From an uncultured Macellibacteroides sp. (GTDB lineage Bacteria; Bacteroidota; Bacteroidia; Bacteroidales; Tannerellaceae), in NCBI RefSeq assembly GCF_963667135.1, contig NZ_OY762974.1, positions 2,232,001 to 2,296,000 on the forward strand: a DNA stretch of 64,000 nucleotides, read 5' to 3'. This document shows, one piece after another, positions 5,644 through 53,297 of this stretch; position 1 is the first letter of the stretch; every line of letters starts with the position of its first letter. The position numbers and the translations under genes were made by a program. The notes under the pieces are model-generated. The model was not told the DNA's origin, made no database searches, and worked only from the letters and a program-made list of their open reading frames with translations.

Positions 5644-7215
5644 TTACAGTTTAGTCCACTTGTCAGGGAGTAAATCTCGGTATATTTGGTCAGGAGCTGT
5701 TGGGCTAATGTAGGCCAACCGACTTAATATATCTGTGAAGTATTCGAAGGTATTAATTCTATGGAGCTTGCAGGATATGGCCAGCGAGTATAGCAATGCT
5801 GTTCTCTTAGCTCCCTGGTGAGAGCCACAAAAAAGAGAGTTCTTTCTGCTTAAAGATATACTTCGCATACATCGTTCCACAGCATTGTTGTCCAAAGCAT
5901 AGTCCGGACTAACAATGTAATTGCACAGGGAATCATACTCGTTGAGCGTATAATTCGTGGCCTTAGAGAGCGGACTCTTGGGAAGGGTAGATGGGTTGGA
6001 TTGTATTTCCAACAGTTTGTTTTTTAGTTCGGCTAGTATGGGTGGGGCATACTTCTGTCTATATTTCAGGATTTTGTCGGGCTTCCATTTCGCTTCGATC
6101 TTATGCTCCGCCTGATAGAGCCGGTTGATTATGTTGACAATCCCGATGGCTTCTTTATCGTTTTCGATATCCAGGAACTGACGCTTGCAATGCTGGAAGC
6201 ATGCCAGCCGGATTACGTCAGGATAGGTATCGGTCTCAAGTATTTTATAGTTGATCAGTCCGTCACACTGGATGGCTCCTTTGTAGTGATTGCCTATATA
6301 GTTGGTGAGAACCTCCCGGGATCGGGAGCCGTTTTCATAAAAGTACTGGACTAATTTCTTTGTATTGGCCAGTGCTGCCCATATATACCCTTTGCGTACG
6401 CCCTTACCATTCTTATTTTTCTCTTTGGTAAGGATGGTATGGTAGCTTTCATCCATACAAAGATAGTCATCCTCAAGGATAGCTGTATGAAGAGCATCAT
6501 CCAGACGGTCCATTAATCCGGCGGACTTCTTAATCAGTCCGTGAGCGGTAGCTTTGTTTAATTCAAAGCCGTTCTCTGTAAAATACTTGACAATCCGCTC
6601 CACAGGCATGGAGTAAACGTATCTCAGTTGCAGCATGCCGGCGATAAAAGAGGCATCGTAGTTTGAGTTCTGCAGCGGAGGTCTGGGGGCCTTGCCCGAG
6701 TAAACCTTTTCCTGCTGTACACAATTGTACTGTCTGTATATAGTTTTTGTAAACCTGGCTTTGCTGTAAGTGTACATAATGGAGTCCACTGATCCTATGA
6801 CCCTGGCCTTATCTTTATCAAAGGCAGGATCATCGGGATATACATGCTCGACAATGGTTTCCAGAGAGAAGTGTTCTTTCCGTTTGGCATTGTTGTTTCC
6901 ACGGTCCTTGGGTGAAACAGGGGGAGCTATTTCTGCCGGTTCTTCTTTTGCGGCATCGGGCACACGCTTTTCTGATTTATTGGAGAGAAGCTTGCTCATT
7001 CCCCGGTTTTTCCCGCTAAGCTTCTCCATGTCCCCGTTCTTCTGAAGCAGACTTTCTTCCAGCGAACGGACTGTATCGGTTAAGCTACCAACCTGCACAG
7101 AGAGTCTTTCTATTTGTGCAGATTGCCGGATGAGTTGTTCCAAATGGATCTTTTCTCTTTCAGAAAAAAGCTTCAGCTGGTCTTCCAGTAATTCAATCAT
7201 CCGTTTGCTATTCAT
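5644..7215 (-). CDS. tnpC: IS66 transposase TnpC
   Basis: The 523-residue DDE transposase of the IS66 element. An N-terminal leucine-rich coiled coil (about 1-75) is followed by a charged linker, a Zn-ribbon-like/IS66-specific region, and the DDE catalytic core with MDESYH, IQCDGLINY and the C-terminal NNAVERCMRSISLSRKNSLF block that supplies the Glu. The end region TALLYSLAISCKLHRINTFEY is highly typical of TnpC. The gene is full length with no frameshift. Confidence 0.95.
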   Translation of the reverse strand: MNSKRMIELLEDQLKLFSEREKIHLEQLIRQSAQIERLSVQVGSLTDTVRSLEESLLQKNGDMEKLSGKNRGMSKLLSNKSEKRVPDAAKEEPAEIAPPVSPKDRGNNNAKRKEHFSLETIVEHVYPDDPAFDKDKARVIGSVDSIMYTYSKARFTKTIYRQYNCVQQEKVYSGKAPRPPLQNSNYDASFIAGMLQLRYVYSMPVERIVKYFTENGFELNKATAHGLIKKSAGLMDRLDDALHTAILEDDYLCMDESYHTILTKEKNKNGKGVRKGYIWAALANTKKLVQYFYENGSRSREVLTNYIGNHYKGAIQCDGLINYKILETDTYPDVIRLACFQHCKRQFLDIENDKEAIGIVNIINRLYQAEHKIEAKWKPDKILKYRQKYAPPILAELKNKLLEIQSNPSTLPKSPLSKATNYTLNEYDSLCNYIVSPDYALDNNAVERCMRSISLSRKNSLFCGSHQGAKRTALLYSLAISCKLHRINTFEYFTDILSRLAYISPTAPDQIYRDLLPDKWTKL

Positions 7216-7301
7216 GCCATAAAGATACGGACAATACTTCGGATGTCAAAGAAAAATACAAACAATATATAATATATATATTTGTATATCAATACATTAA
7301 A

Positions 7302-7649
7302 TCAATACTTAAACCTTCTCCTGTACTTTGCCGAACGAACAGAGACGCCCTCCATTATCAAAACAAAAGTCTTCCATTTCATCTCAAATTCATTGCTTGA
7401 AGGGTTAAACCGGGGAACTTCAAAGGTGCCCTGTTCCAGTTTTTTCTGATACAAAACAAATCCTCCGTTTTCCCAATGAAGGATCTTAATTAACGACCGG
7501 TTCCTGCCAAGGAAGAGAAAAACCTCTCCGGACAAAGGATTACGTTTCATATCTGATTTTACCAACTGGTACAAGGAATAGATACCTTTGCGCATATCCA
7601 CATAATGCGGACATAGATAATAGTTCATGGATTCTGTAAGTGCAAACAT
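7302..7649 (-). CDS. tnpB: IS66 accessory protein TnpB (IS66 Orf2)
   Basis: A 115-residue protein of the IS66 Orf2 family, needed with TnpA and TnpC for transposition in characterised relatives; its biochemical role is unclear. Recognised by YYLCPHYVDMRKGIYSLYQLV near the N-terminus, then FLFLGRNRSLIKILHWENGGFVLYQKKLEQGTF-type sequence across the middle. It lies between tnpA and tnpC, 7 bases after tnpA, in the standard order. Confidence 0.95.
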   Translation of the reverse strand: MFALTESMNYYLCPHYVDMRKGIYSLYQLVKSDMKRNPLSGEVFLFLGRNRSLIKILHWENGGFVLYQKKLEQGTFEVPRFNPSSNEFEMKWKTFVLIMEGVSVRSAKYRRRFKY

Positions 7650-7656
7650 CGGTTTA

Positions 7657-8055
7657 TTAGTTAGAGTAGGTTTGTATAAATTTATTGAGATCTTCCTGGC
7701 TTATCTCTTTAATGGATATAATTACGCCATCGGGAAAAGTGATGCTGACGCCTTTAAGCACAGGAAAAACATTACCTGCGAAAACCGGTTTCTCCGATGC
7801 CTCCTTTGTAAAGGAGAGCGGATAAATCTGCTGTCCTTCACAAGAAGCTTGCTCATGAGCGGAAGCAGAAACCTCGGGTAATACAGGACGTGGTTTGAGA
7901 TCTACTACTTTTATGGAATGCCTGCTCATCCAACATTGAATGCCGTTATAACAGACATGGCGCTCTTTGCAATAATCGCGTAATGTCATAGTGCATGAAA
8001 TACTGATCTGCTTGTACTCCTCAATGGCCAATGCATAAAGTTCGGATGCTTTCAT
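7657..8055 (-). CDS. tnpA: IS66 accessory protein TnpA
   Basis: First gene of the IS66 element, 132 residues. An N-terminal helix-turn-helix-like segment (MTLRDYCKERHVCYNGIQCW) suggests DNA binding; the C-terminal part, ITFPDGVIISIKEISQEDLNKFI, is common to IS66 TnpA proteins of Bacteroidetes. The ATG at 8055 lies about 50 bases inside the right inverted repeat. Confidence 0.85.
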   Translation of the reverse strand: MKASELYALAIEEYKQISISCTMTLRDYCKERHVCYNGIQCWMSRHSIKVVDLKPRPVLPEVSASAHEQASCEGQQIYPLSFTKEASEKPVFAGNVFPVLKGVSITFPDGVIISIKEISQEDLNKFIQTYSN

Positions 8056-8128
8056 TTGTTCCTTTTTTAGGAAACAAAAGTAAGATTATGCATTTATGCT
8101 GTCAAGACGGTATCGCGGAGACGCTTAC

Positions 8129-17520: not shown

Positions 17521-17681
17521 AGCTATATTTTTTAATTCGTTTGACGCGAAACAACACTTTCTTCCTATTATATATGCTTTATAGCAGCATGAAAAGAGAT
17601 GTAAATAATGAATCGGAACGAAATACAAGTCGCATTGTTACAAACTGTAAGAAAAATAATATGAAAAATTTCGAATTTCAT

Positions 17682-17711
17682 TTGCTTGTTTCGAAAAAGG
17701 AGTTATCTTTG
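17682..17711 (+). promoter_or_regulatory. Promoter of the leu operon
   Basis: TTG (17682-17684), exactly 19 bases, then TATCTTTG (17704-17711). The transcript should start near 17719, giving a leader of about 200 nt before leuA that contains the leader peptide and terminator. Confidence 0.8.
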
Positions 17712-17733
17712 CAACGTAAAAATAAGTAAAGCA

Positions 17734-17811
17734 ATGATACAGCATACAGCAAATAGTTTCATTATTATTTCTCTAATTGATATTCTACTCTGGGAACGGA
17801 CTGGGAAGTGA
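17734..17811 (+). CDS. Leader peptide of the leu operon, Ile/Leu-rich
   Basis: A 25-codon reading frame starting about 15 bases after the predicted transcription start. Residues 10-19 read IIISLIDILL; the whole peptide has six Ile and three Leu codons (CTA, CTA, CTC). It looks like a control peptide whose translation rate reports charged tRNA-Ile and tRNA-Leu. Its TGA stop (17809-17811) lies inside the 10-base segment that can pair with the terminator arm, which is where a ribosome must sit to release the terminator. The peptide product itself probably has no function. No database match was tested. Confidence 0.8.
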   Translation: MIQHTANSFIIISLIDILLWERTGK

Positions 17812-17883
17812 GACTGTTGTGCTATGCAAAGCATATGTTAAAAGAAAAAGCCTTTCTCACTTCCTTGTGAGAGAGGCTTTTTT
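17804..17883 (+). terminator. Transcription attenuator of the leu operon
   Basis: The terminator is a 16-bp stem (17845-17860 with 17867-17882, one G-U pair) with a 6-base loop and a T-run. The segment GGAAGTGAGA (17804-17813), overlapping the leader stop codon, is an exact reverse complement of TCTCACTTCC (17855-17864) in the terminator's upstream arm and loop, so the two structures exclude each other. A small hairpin TATGC-AAA-GCATA (17823-17835) lies between them. Predicted logic: ribosome stalled at Ile/Leu codons gives antiterminator; ribosome at the stop gives terminator. Confidence 0.85.
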
Positions 17884-17921
17884 GTTGTTACGAGTACAAA
17901 CAAATTAAGAATTATAGGATT

Positions 17922-19418
17922 ATGTCAGACAAATTGTTTATTTTCGACACCACATTACGAGATGGTGAACAGGTTCCTGGCTGCCAGTTGAACACACTTG
18001 AAAAGATTCAGGTTGCCAAGGCATTGGAGGAATTGGGCGTAGATATTATTGAAGCCGGATTTCCAGTGTCGAGTCCCGGTGATTTTAAAAGCGTGGTTGA
18101 AATATCCAAAGCGGTTACCTGGCCAACCATTTGTGCGCTTACCCGCGCTGTGGAAAAAGACATTGAAGTGGCTGCCGAAGCATTGAAATTTGCCAAACGC
18201 GGACGTATTCATACCGGAATAGGCACTTCCGATTATCATATTCGCTATAAGTTCAACTCTAATCAGGATGATATTCTTGAACGCGCTAAGGCTTGTGTAA
18301 AATACGCTAAACGTTTTGTGGAAGACGTGGAGTTTTATGCCGAAGATGCCGGCCGTACGGATAATGCGTATCTGGCAAGGGTGGTGGAAGCGGTTATCAA
18401 AGCCGGAGCAACGGTTGTAAATATTCCGGATACAACCGGATATTGTCTTCCCGATGAATATGGCGCAAAGATTCGTTACCTGATGGAACATGTGGATGGT
18501 ATTCATAATGCGGTTATTTCTACACACTGTCACAACGACTTGGGAATGGCTACCGCGAATACAGTTCAGGGAGTAATGAACGGCGCGCGTCAGGTGGAAG
18601 TCACCATTAATGGCATTGGCGAACGGGCTGGAAATACGGCTTTGGAAGAGATTGCCATGATTTTTAAAAGCCATAAGGAGACAGGGATTGTTACTAATAT
18701 AAACAGTACGAAAATATATTCGACCAGCCGGATGGTTTCCAGCTTGATGAATATGCCTGTTCAGCCAAATAAGGCTATCGTGGGGCGAAATGCATTTGCA
18801 CACTCTTCCGGAATACATCAGGATGGAGTTTTAAAGAACCGCGAAAGCTATGAAATAATAGATCCTAAGGATGTAGGTATTGATGATAACGCCATTGTAT
18901 TGACTGCAAGAAGCGGACGGGCTGCGTTGAAACACCGGTTAAATTTATTGGGTGTAGACCTTGAGCAGGAAAAGCTGGATAAGGTTTACGAAGAATTCCT
19001 TAAGCTGGCCGACCGGAAGAAAGATATTAACGACGACGATGTGTTGATGCTTGCAGGGAAAGACCGTGTAGCTATGCATCGAATTAAACTTGAATACCTT
19101 CAGGTTACCTCTGGTGTAGGAGTTCAGGCTGTTGCAAGTGTTTGTCTGAATATTGCGGGCGAGAAATTTGAAGCTGCCGCATCAGGTAATGGTCCTGTTG
19201 ATGCTGCCATTAAAGCGGTGAAATCAATTATTCATCGTACAATGACAATTCAGGAATTCCTTATTCAGGCAATTAATAAAGGAAGCGATGATGTAGGTAA
19301 AGTTCATATGCAGGTTGAATATGACGGAAATAATTATTATGGTTTTTCGGCCAATACGGATATTATAGCTGCTTCCGTTGAGGCGTTTATAGATGCGATT
19401 AATAAATTTGTAAAATAA
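17922..19418 (+). CDS. leuA: 2-isopropylmalate synthase
   Basis: First enzyme of leucine synthesis: condenses acetyl-CoA with 2-oxoisovalerate. The 498 residues show the catalytic barrel with [14 protein letters not shown] (about 8-21) and [11 protein letters not shown] with metal-binding His residues near 200, and a C-terminal LeuA regulatory domain from about 385 ([12 protein letters not shown]), which in relatives binds leucine for feedback inhibition. First structural gene after the attenuator; leuC follows after 11 bases. Confidence 0.95.
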
Positions 19419-19429
19419 GATAGAAACGT

Positions 19430-20821
19430 ATGAAGACTCTTTTTGAAAAAATATGGGACAAACATGTGGTGGACACCTTAGCGGATGGGACCATACAATT
19501 GTATATTGATCGTCACTTCTGCCATGAAGTAACCAGTCCTCAGGCGTTTGGAGGGTTAAGAGCCCGCGGTCTAAAGGTGTTCCGTCCGGAACAGACGCTT
19601 TGTATGCCCGACCATAATGTACCTACCTTGAAGCAGGAGTTTCCCATTGAAGATCCGATCTCAAAAAACCAGGTGGATACTCTTGCTAATAACGCTAAGG
19701 AATTTGGTATTACCTATTATGGTATCGGCAATAATAAAAATGGAATTATCCATGTGGTAGGGCCGGAAAACGGATACACGCAACCAGGCATGACTATCGT
19801 TTGCGGAGACTCTCATACTTCTACGCATGGTGCCATGGGTGCTATTGCTTTTGGTATTGGTACAAGTGAAGTTGAAATGACTCTGGCAACGCAGTGTATT
19901 TTCCAGCGGAAACCCAAAACGATGCGTATTACGGTCGATGGAAAACTTAAAGCGGGTGTAACAGCCAAGGATATTGCTTTATATATCATCTCAAAGATGA
20001 CAACCGGTGGTGCAACGGGGTATTTTGTTGAATATGCCGGTGAAGCAATTCGTTCTACGTCCATGGAAGAACGTCTTACAATCTGTAACTTAAGTATAGA
20101 AATGGGTGCTCGCGGAGGTATGGTTGCTCCGGATCAGACAACATTCGATTACCTAGAGGGTCGCGAGTTTGCTCCTAAAGGGGAGGAGTGGGATAAGGCT
20201 TTGGCTTACTGGAAAACATTGTATAGTGAAGCAGATGCTGTATTCGATAAGGAAGTGCTTTTCCATGCAGAAGATATTGAGCTGATGGTTACCTATGGTA
20301 CCAATCCAGGTATGGGTATGGGTATCAGCGGAATTATTCCTGCGTTGGACAGTGTTGACGAAGCGAGTCGCGTGTCGTACAAAAAGGCGCTCGACTATAT
20401 GGGATTCGAGGCCGGTAAGCCTATTCAGGGAAAGCAGATCGATTATGTGTTTCTTGGTAGCTGTACCAATGGACGTATCGAAGACTTCCGGATGTTTACC
20501 AATTTTGTAAAGGGGCGTAAAAAGGCCGATCATGTAACTGCTTGGTTGGTTCCCGGGTCATGGAATGTTGCTCGTCAGATTAAAGAAGAAGGTTTGGATG
20601 TTATTCTGAAGGAAGCAGGTTTTGAATTACGTCAACCTGGTTGTTCTGCTTGTCTGGCGATGAATGAAGACAAGGTGCCTGCTGGTAAATATGCCGTAAG
20701 TACAAGCAACCGTAATTTTGAAGGCCGTCAGGGTCCTGGTGCACGTACCATTCTTGCAGGGCCGCTTGTTGCTGCCGCAGCTGCGGTTACCGGAAAAATA
20801 ACAGATCCACGAACACTATAA
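19430..20821 (+). CDS. leuC: 3-isopropylmalate dehydratase large subunit
   Basis: Large subunit of the Fe-S isomerase that converts 2- to 3-isopropylmalate, and also citramalate-type substrates in relatives. The 463-residue aconitase-fold protein has [12 protein letters not shown] near residue 125, FLGSCTNGR near 343, and [12 protein letters not shown] near 402; the three cysteines ligate the 4Fe-4S cluster. It pairs with leuD 12 bases downstream. Confidence 0.96.
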
Positions 20822-20833
20822 GAATAAGAAAAA

Positions 20834-21421
20834 ATGGAAAAATTCGTAACATTAACATCAACGGTAGTTCCTCTTCCAATCGAAAATGTGGATACCGATC
20901 AAATTATACCTGCCCGTTTCTTAAAAGCTACAACCCGCGAAGGGTTTGGAGATAACCTTTTCCGCGACTGGCGGTACGACAAAGAGAATAATCCGGTTCC
21001 TTCGTTTGTTTTAAACCAGAACACCTATTCCGGTGAGATACTGGTGGCTGGTAAAAACTTTGGTAGTGGTTCGAGCCGCGAACACGCAGCCTGGGCTATT
21101 GCCGGATACGGATTTCGAGTGGTTGTAAGCAGTTTCTTTGCCGATATATTTAAAGGAAACTCTTTGAATAATGGATTGCTTCCTGTAGTTGTATCTCCCG
21201 AATTTCTTGCCGAAATCTTTGCATCGGTTACAACCGATCCCAAAGCTACGCTTACGGTGGATTTACAAAATCAAAAAATTACAAACAATGCCACCGGCAA
21301 GAGTGAGAACTTTGATATCAATGCCTATAAGAAAGACTGCTTGTTGAATGGACTGGACGACATCGATTATTTGTTGTCCAACAAAGCAAAAATAGAGGCT
21401 TATGAGTCAGCCAGAAAATAA
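20834..21421 (+). CDS. leuD: 3-isopropylmalate dehydratase small subunit
   Basis: Swivelling small subunit of the isopropylmalate isomerase, 195 residues. Diagnostic motifs are [13 protein letters not shown] near the N-terminus and [17 protein letters not shown] near residues 73-89, the substrate-binding loop. Its end overlaps the start of the next synthase by 20 bases, implying coupled translation. Confidence 0.96.
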
Positions 21422-22928
21422 AGTAATAGAGATAATGGATACGACCCTGAGGGATGGCGAACAAACCTCAGGCGTATCTTTCTCTGCTCACGAAAAATTA
21501 AGTATTGCCCGTCAGCTTCTTACGGACCTTGGTGTAAACCGTATCGAAATTGCTTCCGCAAGGGTGTCGGAGGGTGAGTATGATGCGGTTAAGCTTACTG
21601 TACGGTGGGCCGAACGTGCCGGATACCTTTCCAAGCTGGAAGTACTCGGATTTGTTGATGGCGAGACTTCACTGAATTGGATTCAATCGGCTGGCTGCAA
21701 GGTGATGAACTTGTTGTGTAAGGGTTCTTATAAACATGTAACAGAACAATTACGCAAAACGCCTGAGCAACACATCGCCGAGATTACGGAGGTAGTTTGT
21801 AAGGCACAAAAAATGGGAATTGAGGTGAATGTTTACCTCGAGGACTGGTCCAATGGGATGATCAGCTCTCCGGAGTACGTCTTTAAACTGATGGATAATC
21901 TCTGCACCCTGCCTATCCGGCGGTTTATGCTTCCCGATACCCTTGGTATTCTGAATCCGAAAAATACCTATACTTTTTGCAAGGAGATGGTATCGCGCTG
22001 GCCCGCACTTCATTTCGATTTTCATGGGCACAATGATTATGATCTGGCTGTGGCTAATGTTTATTCGGCTATTCAAGCGGGAGTTCGTGGTGTTCATACG
22101 ACGGTGAATGGTTTGGGCGAACGTGCCGGCAATCCTCCGTTGAGTAGTGTGCTGGCTGTTATTCACGATCAGCTTAAGCTAAAGACTACGCTGAATGAAA
22201 ATAAGATATATCAGGTAAGCAAGTTGGTGGAAACCTATTCGGGTATCCACATTTCAACTAATAATCCGATTATCGGCGAACATGTATTTACGCAGTGTGC
22301 AGGTATTCATGCGGATGGAGATGCTAAAAATAATCTTTACTTCAATGATTTGCTTCCCGAGCGTTTTGGTCGTACGAGGGAGTATGCGTTGGGAAAAACA
22401 TCTGGCAAAGCCAATATCCGGAAGAATCTGGAAGCCCTGGGCATCGAAATGGATGAAGAATCCATGCGTAAGGTTACAGAACGGATTATTGAATTGGGGG
22501 ATAAGAAAGAGATGGTTACGCAAGAAGATCTTCCTTATATTATTACCGATGTGCTTCGTCACGATGCAATAGAAAACAAGGTGAAGTTGTTAAACTATTC
22601 ACTATCTTTGACGCAAGGTCTGAAGCCTGTGGCTACGCTTAAAATAGAAATTGAAGGTAAAGCGTACGAAGAAACGGCTTCGGGAGACGGACAGTATGAT
22701 GCTTTTGTTAGGGCGCTTCGCAAAATTTACAAATCGTTGGCTAAGCCCTTTCCGATGCTTACAAACTACTCCGTATCCATTCCTCCCGGCGGACGAACCG
22801 ATGCTTTTGTGCAAACGGTTATCAGCTGGAATCATGAGGGTGCAGACTTTAAAACACGTGGACTGGATGCCGACCAGACTGAGGCTGCTATCAAGGCCAC
22901 TGTTAAGATGCTTAATAAGATTGCATAA
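21402..22928 (+). CDS. Second LeuA-like synthase, candidate (R)-citramalate synthase
   Basis: A 508-residue paralogue of leuA with [19 protein letters not shown] at the N-terminus, [15 protein letters not shown] in the barrel, and a LeuA-type regulatory domain from about residue 400. Domain layout and divergence from the adjacent LeuA suggest a different keto acid substrate. Pyruvate, giving citramalate for isoleucine synthesis, is the best guess; homocitrate synthesis or a second isopropylmalate synthase cannot be excluded from sequence reading. Isoleucine relevance agrees with the Ile codons in the operon leader. The ATG is inside leuD. Confidence 0.8.
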
Positions 22929-22949: not shown

Positions 22950-23393
22950 ATGAAAAAACAATTGACTATTGCGCTAGTTGCGCATGATAACCGTAAGGCG
23001 GATATGGTAGAGTGGGCTGTTCATAATGCAGACATGCTTTCTATACATAAGCTGGTATGCACCGGCACAACAGGTAGTATGATTAGAAAGGCCTTTCAGG
23101 AAAAGGGAATTGAAGCAGATATTACCTGCATGAATTCCGGACCGTTGGGTGGTGATGCCGAAATTGCTGCTAAAGTAGTCCGTAAGGAAGTTAATCTGGC
23201 TGTTTTTCTGATCGACGATTTGAACGCCCAGCCACACGAAGCGGATATACAGATGCTTCTTCGTCAGTGCCGGGTACACAATGTGCCTATTGCCTGTAAC
23301 CGCTATAGTGCTGACCTTATGATTACAAGTACGCTTTGGGATAACGAAGACTATGTTCCCACTGAACCTAAGTATGTTTATTTTAAACGATAA
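22950..23393 (+). CDS. mgsA: Methylglyoxal synthase
   Basis: Converts dihydroxyacetone phosphate to methylglyoxal and phosphate, a bypass of lower glycolysis. The 147-residue protein has the family features: ALVAHDNRKADMVEWA at the N-terminus, CTGTTGSMI (phosphate binding) near residue 38, SGPLGGDAEIA with the catalytic Asp near 70, and FLIDDLNAQPHEADI near 91. It lies inside the leu operon, 21 bases after the second synthase and 21 bases before leuB, which is an unexpected place for it. Confidence 0.93.
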   Translation: MKKQLTIALVAHDNRKADMVEWAVHNADMLSIHKLVCTGTTGSMIRKAFQEKGIEADITCMNSGPLGGDAEIAAKVVRKEVNLAVFLIDDLNAQPHEADIQMLLRQCRVHNVPIACNRYSADLMITSTLWDNEDYVPTEPKYVYFKR

Positions 23394-23414: not shown

Positions 23415-24485
23415 ATGAAATTGAATATTGCAGTATTGCCTGGAGATGGAATCGGACCCGAAATCATTGAACAGGCCCTAAAGAGTGTACAGGCTATATG
23501 TACAAAATTTAATCATGAACTAACGTATAATCAAGCGCTTGTTGGGGCTTGTGCCATCGATGCAACCGGTAATCCTTACCCTGAAGAGACGCACAGTCTT
23601 TGTATGCAGAGTGATGCTGTATTGTTTGGGGCGATTGGTTCGCCTGCTTACGATAATAATCCTTCGGCCAAAGTGCGTCCGGAACAAGGGTTGCTAGCCA
23701 TGCGCAAGAAGCTGGGTTTGTTTGCAAATATACGCCCGGTTACCGCTTTCCCAAGCCTTTTGCATAAGTCGCCGCTTCGTGCCGAACTGATAGAAGATGC
23801 CGACTTTATGTGTATCCGCGAACTTACCGGTGGTTTGTATTTTGGCCGTCCGCAAGGTCGCAGTGAAGATGGGGATACCGCTTATGATACCTGTGTTTAT
23901 ACCCGCGAAGAGATCGAACGCATTGTACGTTTGGCTTACGGTTATGCACAAAAACGCAGAAAGAAATTGTCGGTTGTTGATAAAGCAAATATCTTGGCAA
24001 CCTCTCGTTTGTGGCGTCAGATTGCTCAGGAAATTTCTGTTGAGTTCCCGGATGTAGAAACAGAATATATGTTTGTTGATAACGCAGCCATGCGTTTGAT
24101 ACAGTGGCCGAAAAGCTTTGATGTAATGGTTACTGAAAATATGTTCGGAGATATTCTTACAGACGAAGCTTCTGTTATTACTGGTTCGTTGGGTATGCTT
24201 CCATCTGCTTCGGTAGGGATTCATACCTCTGTATTTGAACCTATTCATGGTTCATATCCTCAGGCAGCAGGAAAAAATATTGCCAATCCGTTGGCAACAA
24301 TTTTGAGTGCGGCTTTGATGTTCGAGTATGCTTTTGATCTGAAAGAGGAAGGAAAATTAATCCGCGAAGCAGTTACCGCTTCAATGGATGCAGGTGTTGT
24401 TACAGAAGATATCTCTGAAAAGGGAAAAGCTTATTCTACATCGGCTGTTGGAGATTGGGTAGCAGCTTACATCAAGAATAAATAA
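23415..24485 (+). CDS. leuB: 3-isopropylmalate dehydrogenase
   Basis: NAD-dependent oxidative decarboxylase of leucine synthesis, 356 residues. Motifs: [12 protein letters not shown] at the N-terminus, [10 protein letters not shown] near residue 137, [22 protein letters not shown] near 237, and [19 protein letters not shown] near 275, which bind substrate, metal and NAD. Last gene of the operon; a strong terminator begins on its stop codon. Confidence 0.96.
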
Positions 24486-53052: not shown

Positions 53053-53082
53053 TTGGTATTTAGAGAATAATTGCTAAGTTTG
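53053..53082 (+). promoter_or_regulatory. Promoter of the cobalamin riboswitch transcript
   Basis: TTG (53053-53055), 19 bases, TAAGTTTG (53075-53082): an exact fit to the Bacteroidetes promoter pattern. Transcription should start near 53089. Confidence 0.75.
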
Positions 53083-53088
53083 CATTGC

Positions 53089-53256
53089 AATGTTCCGTAA
53101 CCGTAATCGCGGGGAGGATTAAAAGGGAATCGGGTGTAAATCCCGGACAGTCCCGCTGCTGTAAACTTCATAACGTACCGGACAATTTCTTTGCCACTGT
53201 TTATTTTGAACGGGAAGGCGTACGGATTACGGAAGTAAGTCAGAAGACCTGCTTTG
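53089..53256 (+). ncRNA. Cobalamin riboswitch
   Basis: Aptamer for adenosyl- or aquocobalamin on the plus strand. Conserved blocks in order are AAAAGGGAATCGGGTGTAAA (53121-53140), CCCGCTGCTGTAA (the B12 box region, about 53152-53164), GCCACTG (about 53193-53199), CGGGAAGGCG (53211-53220), and AGTCAGAAGACCTGC (about 53239-53252). Segment TTCCGTAACCG (about 53093) can pair with CGGATTACGGAA (about 53223) to close the structure. No riboswitch-controlled gene is recognisable downstream. Confidence 0.93.
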
Positions 53257-53297
53257 CATCATATTTCAAAAGCTTCGAGGAAAGGCTACTGAATTGT

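Follow-up and report, generated by a model that had tools for sequence, protein, structure and literature searches.

Does a ribosome that translates a leader peptide decide whether the leu operon of this uncultured Macellibacteroides sp., a member of the Bacteroidota, is transcribed? For Proteobacteria, attenuation by leaders is described in textbooks. Classic attenuation needs fast initiation by the ribosome and its closeness to RNA polymerase, and the Bacteroidota lack Shine-Dalgarno sequences (PMC6847099). The question is raised by the region in front of leuA in the window, i.e. the whole 64,000-nucleotide stretch of DNA analysed here, which comes from a genome of 4.46 Mb in one contig and for which a first-pass annotation had claimed leader-peptide attenuation.

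The promoter with exact spacing, the 25-codon leader with IIISLIDILL at residues 10-19, the exact complementarity between segments 2 and 3, the leader stop codon within segment 2 and the strong terminator shortly before leuA, all claimed in that annotation, could be read directly (Table 1). The short translatable ORF lies right behind the promoter, starting 22 nt past the TAnnTTTG box (the -7 box of PMC9723704), and contains six Ile and three Leu codons; the T-run ends 38 nt before the leuA ATG. The terminator fold has a predicted energy of -25.6 kcal/mol, which was equalled in 0 of 200 shuffles, and an exact complement of at least 10 bases between the upstream region and the terminator arm and loop occurred in 10 of 5000 dinucleotide shuffles. 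Taken alone, the 10-base complement is moderately unlikely to have arisen by chance; the comparison of genomes provides stronger evidence for the element than do these shuffle statistics at the window.

Table 1. Parts of the leu control region and genes of the operon behind it (window positions)
Feature	Position	Strand	Description
Promoter, Bacteroidota-type	17681..17711	+	TTTG 17681-17684, 19 nt gap, TATCTTTG 17704-17711
Leader ORF	17734..17811	+	25 codons, MIQHTANSFIIISLIDILLWERTGK; ATG 17734, stop TGA 17809-17811
Control codons IIISLIDILL (residues 10-19)	17761..17790	+	ATT ATT ATT TCT CTA ATT GAT ATT CTA CTC
Segment 1	17742..17763	+	pairs with 17807-17827 (likely protector helix 1:2) in the MFE fold; overlaps leader codons 3-10
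Segment 2, GGAAGTGAGA	17804..17813	+	antiterminator 5' side; exact complement of segment 3
Segment 3, TCTCACTTCC	17855..17864	+	common to the antiterminator and the terminator arm/loop
Intrinsic terminator	17845..17883	+	16-bp stem 17845-17860/17867-17882, T-run 17878-17883
leuA, 2-isopropylmalate synthase	17922..19418	+	NCBIfam NF002086 731 bits, TIGR00973 663 bits, both above cut-off
leuC	19430..20821	+	TIGR00170 above cut-off
leuD	20834..21421	+	TIGR00171 above cut-off
cimA-like second synthase	21402..22928	+	best model NF042433 (Leptospira CimA) 653 bits, cut-off 950 unreached
mgsA-like, methylglyoxal synthase	22950..23393	+	NF003559 163.8 bits, cut-off 84
leuB	23415..24485	+	TIGR00169 455 bits, above cut-off

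For this comparison, GTDB genomes were scanned for LeuA and the best 80 of 592 confirmed stretches were used, the closest LeuA among these 80 being that of a Parabacteroides MAG (L003; 99% identity). A leader was called when an ATG at most 60 nt from TAnnTTTG opened a frame of 12-45 codons with at least six Ile+Leu+Val. By this rule a leader is present in 51 of the 80 leuA loci, plus the window, and TTTG lies 18-23 nt 5' of TAnnTTTG in 43 of these 52 leader sequences (duplicates counted). Among the same best 80, 29 loci have no leader by the rule: 28 show no candidate ORF and L071 fails on composition. In 19 of the 28 ORF-less loci, including the Muribaculaceae loci L056, L074 and L078, a TAnnTTTG box stands at most 130 nt from leuA, which leaves little room for the element. 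The sequence 5' of leuA amounts to only 61, 44 and 151 bases in L004, L021 and L029, respectively, and L026 has the terminator and the 10-base match of segments 2 and 3 with no leader by the rule. The resulting alignment (A1) comprises 50 sequences, L012 and L050 being omitted as duplicates of L011 and L049, and L003 being nearly the window itself; all P values given here are optimistic because related sequences are not independent. Both features that the first-pass annotation had proposed to look for across Bacteroidales, a covarying antiterminator and terminator and a conserved Ile/Leu-rich small frame, were found in these 50 sequences.

The antiterminator helix (2:3) is paired in 86.4% of 477 alignment cells and the terminator helix (3:4) in 88.7% of 778, values as high in 0 of 500 shuffles in both cases, whereas sliding the partner by 1-3 columns lowered the pairing to 34-58% and 42-69%, respectively. 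Double-change cells number 16 for 2:3 (4.4 in shuffles) and 44 for 3:4 (11.2 in shuffles), each count being reached in 0 of 500 shuffles; the number of 2:3 pairs that bear a double change was equalled by 30 of 500. The two helices are mutually exclusive, and segments 2, 3 and 4 change jointly, columns 112, 191 and 203 reading TAT in 32 rows and CGC in 7 of the 50. The terminator-loop bases beside the stem have no partner inside the terminator, and the combination seen most often, with AA in segment 2 and TT in the terminator loop, accounts for 35 of 50 rows. Neither the length nor the sequence of the linker between segments 2 and 3 is constant, and RNAalifold run on the whole alignment recovered only part of the terminator stem. 

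A further helix, absent from the first-pass annotation, would join segment 1 to segment 2 and its 3' flank. It was examined in 47 leaders (L003, L041 and L070 were dropped) against 60 synonymous shuffles each, weighted by codon use in six genes of the window. In all 47, the 5' part of the leader is expected to pair with segment 2 and its flank more than in the average shuffle (mean z 1.29), and in 20 of them no more than 3 of the 60 shuffles reached the observed value; for the window alone, z was 1.07 and 7 of 60 shuffles did so. Covariation between columns is weak for 1:2, with 14 double-change pairs where shuffles have 12.6, a count reached by 121 of 500 shuffles; this would be expected of a helix whose register drifts. 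We regard this protector helix as likely, though short of proven, and termination is then predicted in the absence of translation.

In the leader itself, the ATG and the Ile/Leu core are separated by a multiple of three nucleotides in 48 of 50 rows, and the last core codon stands 13-15 nt from AAGTGAG in 45 of 50. Stop codon and segment 2 share bases in 28 of the 50 rows, the window among them; the stop follows segment 2 in 19 and precedes it in 3. Where it follows, as in Bacteroides and Phocaeicola, the frame crosses segment 2 and the stop lies beyond. The position of the stop is thus less constant than the spacing between the Ile/Leu core and segment 2, which is the best-kept feature. 

Codon choice in the leaders is also distinctive. 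In 49 distinct leaders (1226 codons), Leu makes up 19.1% and Ile 17.8%, as compared to 8.6% and 6.8% in 12 window genes, an enrichment that is partly circular because the leaders were picked with at least six Ile+Leu+Val; this does not apply to the scarcity of Val (1.6% versus 7.8%). CTA accounts for 33% of the 234 leader Leu codons and CTC for 18%, each being used for 5.6% of the 465 Leu codons of the 12 window genes. In 47 leaders, the Ile/Leu share is 89-98% at the last four core codons and 9% at the following codon. The starts of the leaders are rich in A at -13 (34 of 49) and -12 (31 of 49), without enrichment of A at -3 (17 of 49); the starts of Flavobacterium johnsoniae are likewise A-rich at -13/-12, and A at -3 favours initiation there (PMC6847099). 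The Tannerella leuA leaders L017 and L018 carry Val runs (VV, VVV) in place of Ile.

The consequences of a stalled ribosome were predicted by folding, assuming an E. coli-like footprint from A-15 to A+13. With a transcript ending at 17866, the best fold contains 2:3 for each of the four stalls tested (A site at 17764, 17779, 17785 or 17788), and lacks it when the A site is at 17797 or at the stop codon, or when there is no ribosome. With a transcript to 17872, 2:3 is kept for the stall at 17764 only, the other three reverting to 1:2 plus a growing terminator, and from 17878 on the terminator is part of the best fold in all states tested. Since the terminator is present in every fold of the full-length RNA, the choice between the helices must be made kinetically. 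When the test equivalent to that with the 17866 transcript was applied to 47 leaders, a fraction of 0.79 was permissive one codon ahead of the last core codon, 0.62 at this codon, 0.40 and 0.09 at one and two codons after it, and 0 at three to eleven codons after it; the use of Ile/Leu drops at the same place (0.98, 0.89, 0.09, 0.04). Ile/Leu account for 352 of 685 permissive codons and 80 of 529 others, and of the 47 stop positions 2 are permissive, so that the control codons for the operon products stand where stalling is predicted to free segment 2. The two edges come from separate computations plotted from one alignment anchor, and their coincidence is taken as the most specific support for ribosome stalling.

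From the sequence we infer a course of events that runs from the start site through stalling and a kinetic choice to a single six-gene transcript and a cellular response to Ile and Leu. RNA polymerase would start near 17717, judging from the promoter boxes, and, with no Shine-Dalgarno sequence to guide it, a ribosome would start translating the leader at 17734. At low levels of charged tRNA-Ile or tRNA-Leu, the ribosome would stall in IIISLIDILL and leave segment 2 free to pair with segment 3 once this is made, before segment 4 exists; the terminator would then come too late, and leuA-leuC-leuD-cimA-mgsA-leuB would be transcribed. When both tRNAs are charged, the ribosome would proceed and cover segment 2, and the 3:4 terminator would end the transcript. 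With no translation, 1:2 would form and the terminator would win too. Since both helices covary, the frame is kept, and the choice and the placement of codons agree, we are highly confident that the element acts as a ribosome-mediated attenuator of leu/cim transcription with Ile and Leu control codons, as the first-pass annotation had proposed; the leader very probably turns on the leucine and isoleucine genes when either amino acid runs short.

The presence of Ile codons in front of a leu operon would be explained by the second synthase, which looks like a citramalate synthase. Its next-best model after Leptospira CimA is an isopropylmalate synthase model (337 bits), with TIGR00977 at 179 bits (cut-off 450), and citramalate synthase is its probable identity as judged from these scores. 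Citramalate is converted to 2-ketobutyrate via LeuCD and LeuB, so that the operon would make both Ile and Leu. No threonine dehydratase in the genome exceeds the TIGR01127 cut-off of 379 (best 70 bits, with this one model), and together with the CimA-like enzyme this suggests that Ile and Leu probably both depend on the operon. The mixed Ile/Leu code therefore fits the operon, in line with the remark of the first-pass annotation on its second synthase. The methylglyoxal synthase gene sits between cimA and leuB; an mgsA-like gene also occurs in the same-family genome L150 and was not found in stretches L151-L158, and in L157 an unrelated ORF (6972-8057; acyltransferase-like by eye) separates leuA from leuC.

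Related elements were sought with R2, a covariance model of the leader-and-terminator element. In 149 genomes of the order it matched 44 at E ≤ 0.001 (69 rows), of which 67 rows were used in the follow-up, two opposite-strand rows being omitted. CimA was found in 48 of the 149 genomes; an R2 match lies 3-5 kb 5' of it on the same strand in 22 and at 9.0-9.4 kb in 3 more, whereas 26 of the 48 have no match at 3-5 kb and 23 none within 12 kb. The 52 rows examined, window included, comprise 25 before leuA, 22 before ilvD and one each before ilvE, a prephenate dehydratase gene, an aminotransferase gene and gltB, and a gene-less terminator. The glutamate synthase case (L181, G457:C2:73300-74900) is attenuator-like and may have a leader, MKTKHTSFANKHAYKHNKIVQ, with residues that do not match the product. 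Loci L131 and L171 lie on one contig (G423:C4), where an attenuator in front of ilvD (leader MKFSISLILSLVIILVVKTSGK) is followed or preceded at a distance of 7.6 kb by one in front of leuA, a pair that provides a natural test of nested control.

Leaders before ilvD differ from those before leuA in their Val content. Val and Ile+Leu codons number 31 and 98 in 12 ilvD leaders against 30 and 642 in 70 leuA leaders (Fisher 4e-11 when each codon is counted as independent; the set excludes 12 later ilvD leaders, the over-long start used for L005 adds one Val, and L126, identical to L008, is counted twice). In 13 genomes where the two could be paired, Val takes a larger share of the ilvD leader than of the leuA leader in 12 and an equal share in 1. 

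In the window genome, the ilvD leader is MINGVLHSIILVVVLLVIRR. This Val/Ile/Leu leader stands about 17 kb before the window (L159, C1:2213500-2222500), in front of ilvD-ilvB-ilvN-acyl-ACP thioesterase-ilvC, the presence of a thioesterase gene (PF01643) inside an ilv cluster being odd. The trp leader MKTILVNAYWWRFLQLIKS coincides with an RF01692 match of 66.9 bits before the trp genes. A putative His leader, MKVNTLHHHHHYNGQ, with a terminator-like hairpin precedes hisG (L169, C1:2887000-2888600), and a putative Phe/Tyr-rich leader, MKQMNSFSFTYSYYYFYFSRVKAGSYM, precedes the prephenate dehydratase gene (L170, C1:3122900-3124300), neither locus having an Rfam match at gathering score. No leader was seen upstream of the aspartokinase-homoserine dehydrogenase gene. 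The third strong R2 match in this genome (L085) is a terminator behind which no ORF of at least 100 codons was found, and the weaker ones (L087-L092) look like terminators.

In a phylum sample of 395 genomes, R2 matched 120 at E ≤ 0.01. Twenty-two further loci were examined (a set that leaves aside L109, L113, L117, L120 and L121), three of them leuA loci within the order and 19 outside it. Judged by eye, the leader fits the gene in 11 of these 19 (two ilvD-like, four branched-chain/class-IV aminotransferase, two aspartate kinase, two trpE and one unnamed) and does not in 8; the loci without a fitting leader among the 22 are L099, L105, L108, L110, L112, L114, L116 and L118. The L111 gene, taken by eye for an acetolactate synthase small subunit, matched no family, and this name was dropped.

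Among known systems, the enterobacterial leu leader (leuL; Rfam Leu_leader, RF00512) has rare CUA Leu codons (in E. coli), alternative pairings and an intrinsic terminator before leuA, three traits that it shares with the element described here. This element differs from it by a mixed Ile/Leu code, the lack of a Shine-Dalgarno sequence, the TTTG/TAnnTTTG promoter and the CimA-like operon gene, and Leu_leader does not appear in the matches listed for it. The ilv leaders of Proteobacteria and Corynebacterium likewise sense several branched-chain amino acids with one leader; unlike them, a Val-containing ilv-type and a Val-poor leu/cim-type element here coexist in one genome. The Bacteroid-trp leader RNA (RF01692), listed in a table of Weinberg 2010 (PMC2864571), is also a leader-peptide RNA of Bacteroidota before amino-acid genes, but has Trp codons, is another RNA and does not figure in the matches listed for the leu site. 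In Flavobacterium psychrophilum, which belongs to another class of the phylum, structured 5' regions were reported to give strong clues to leader attenuation, the section of PMC9723704 on these regions not naming leuA. Short ORFs of Bacteroides thetaiotaomicron were found reminiscent of leader peptides (a passage of PMC7366714), and such attenuators may have originated in gamma-proteobacteria (a passage of PMC3766115). Naville and Gautheret wrote in 2010 that they knew of no such case demonstrated beyond Proteobacteria and Actinobacteria prior to their own in Firmicutes (PMC2965389). Among the open-access titles and abstracts listed, none was recognised as dealing with a leu leader of Bacteroidota, and the passages considered of PMC6429828 and PMC9026213 contain nothing on the leu element. 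The novelty is smaller than the first-pass annotation had suggested, since RF01692 and the hints from Flavobacterium psychrophilum came before. As judged from its sequence, the leu element appears to be classic ribosome-mediated attenuation without an Rfam match; the mechanism is known, and we claim no priority for the element.

Could the terminator instead be a fixed brake behind a fortuitous leader ORF, with no control by translation? Intrinsic terminators do occur in 5' regions, and the 8 phylum-level matches without a fitting leader are of this kind, but frame conservation, the choice of rare codons, the partnerless loop bases that match segment 2 and the fact that leader amino-acid identity follows the downstream gene make this very improbable. 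We give as little credence to a functional small hydrophobic protein to which the attenuator-like structure would be secondary: the leader peptides are indeed short, hydrophobic and conserved in position, but their sequence varies beyond the Ile/Leu core, their C-terminus changes frame across segment 2, and the his and prephenate dehydratase leaders of the same genome fit codon sensing better than one membrane peptide.

Reading of the attenuator by a T-box, a riboswitch or an RNA-binding protein, which control amino-acid operons in other phyla, is very improbable too, nothing in the present analysis speaking for it. The only Rfam matches at gathering score in the window are a tRNA and a cobalamin riboswitch (53073-53270, 105 bits), neither at the leu site, where leader families reach at best 22-23 bits on either strand (cut-off 55), and no T-box appears there at gathering score or among 18 weak matches at E ≤ 10, all of which are far below gathering scores and were taken as chance. 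The variable linker between segments 2 and 3 also speaks against such readers. More weight, though still on the unlikely side, goes to attenuation by the ribosome with a single amino acid sensed (Leu only or Ile only) and the other codons as passengers. The last two core codons, closest to the decision point, encode Leu (CTA CTC), and sequence cannot give the relative weight of Ile and Leu; against this, Ile precedes the terminal Leu codons in most aligned rows, and the operon looks like the sole Ile route in the window genome (by the one threonine dehydratase model). Attenuation that senses both amino acids is thus the reading we retain.

Together, these data make it probable that leader-peptide attenuation is the standard control of amino-acid biosynthesis in the Bacteroidota, with leu/cim (Ile+Leu), ilvD (Ile+Leu+Val), ilvE, his, Phe/Tyr, trp and Thr leaders sharing one architecture. 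The trick itself is old; the surprise lies in the breadth and regularity of such leaders in a phylum without Shine-Dalgarno sequences. The split between Ile/Leu and Ile/Leu/Val operons predicts that these bacteria make isoleucine via citramalate and the leu operon, and the leader-and-terminator model, which finds elements before other genes too, can help annotation. If true, the proposal would mean that a ribosome reliably starts near the 5' end and trails RNA polymerase closely enough to decide termination, i.e. that transcription and translation are tightly coupled in Bacteroidota, a coupling for which the conserved attenuator would be a ready reporter in gut commensals.
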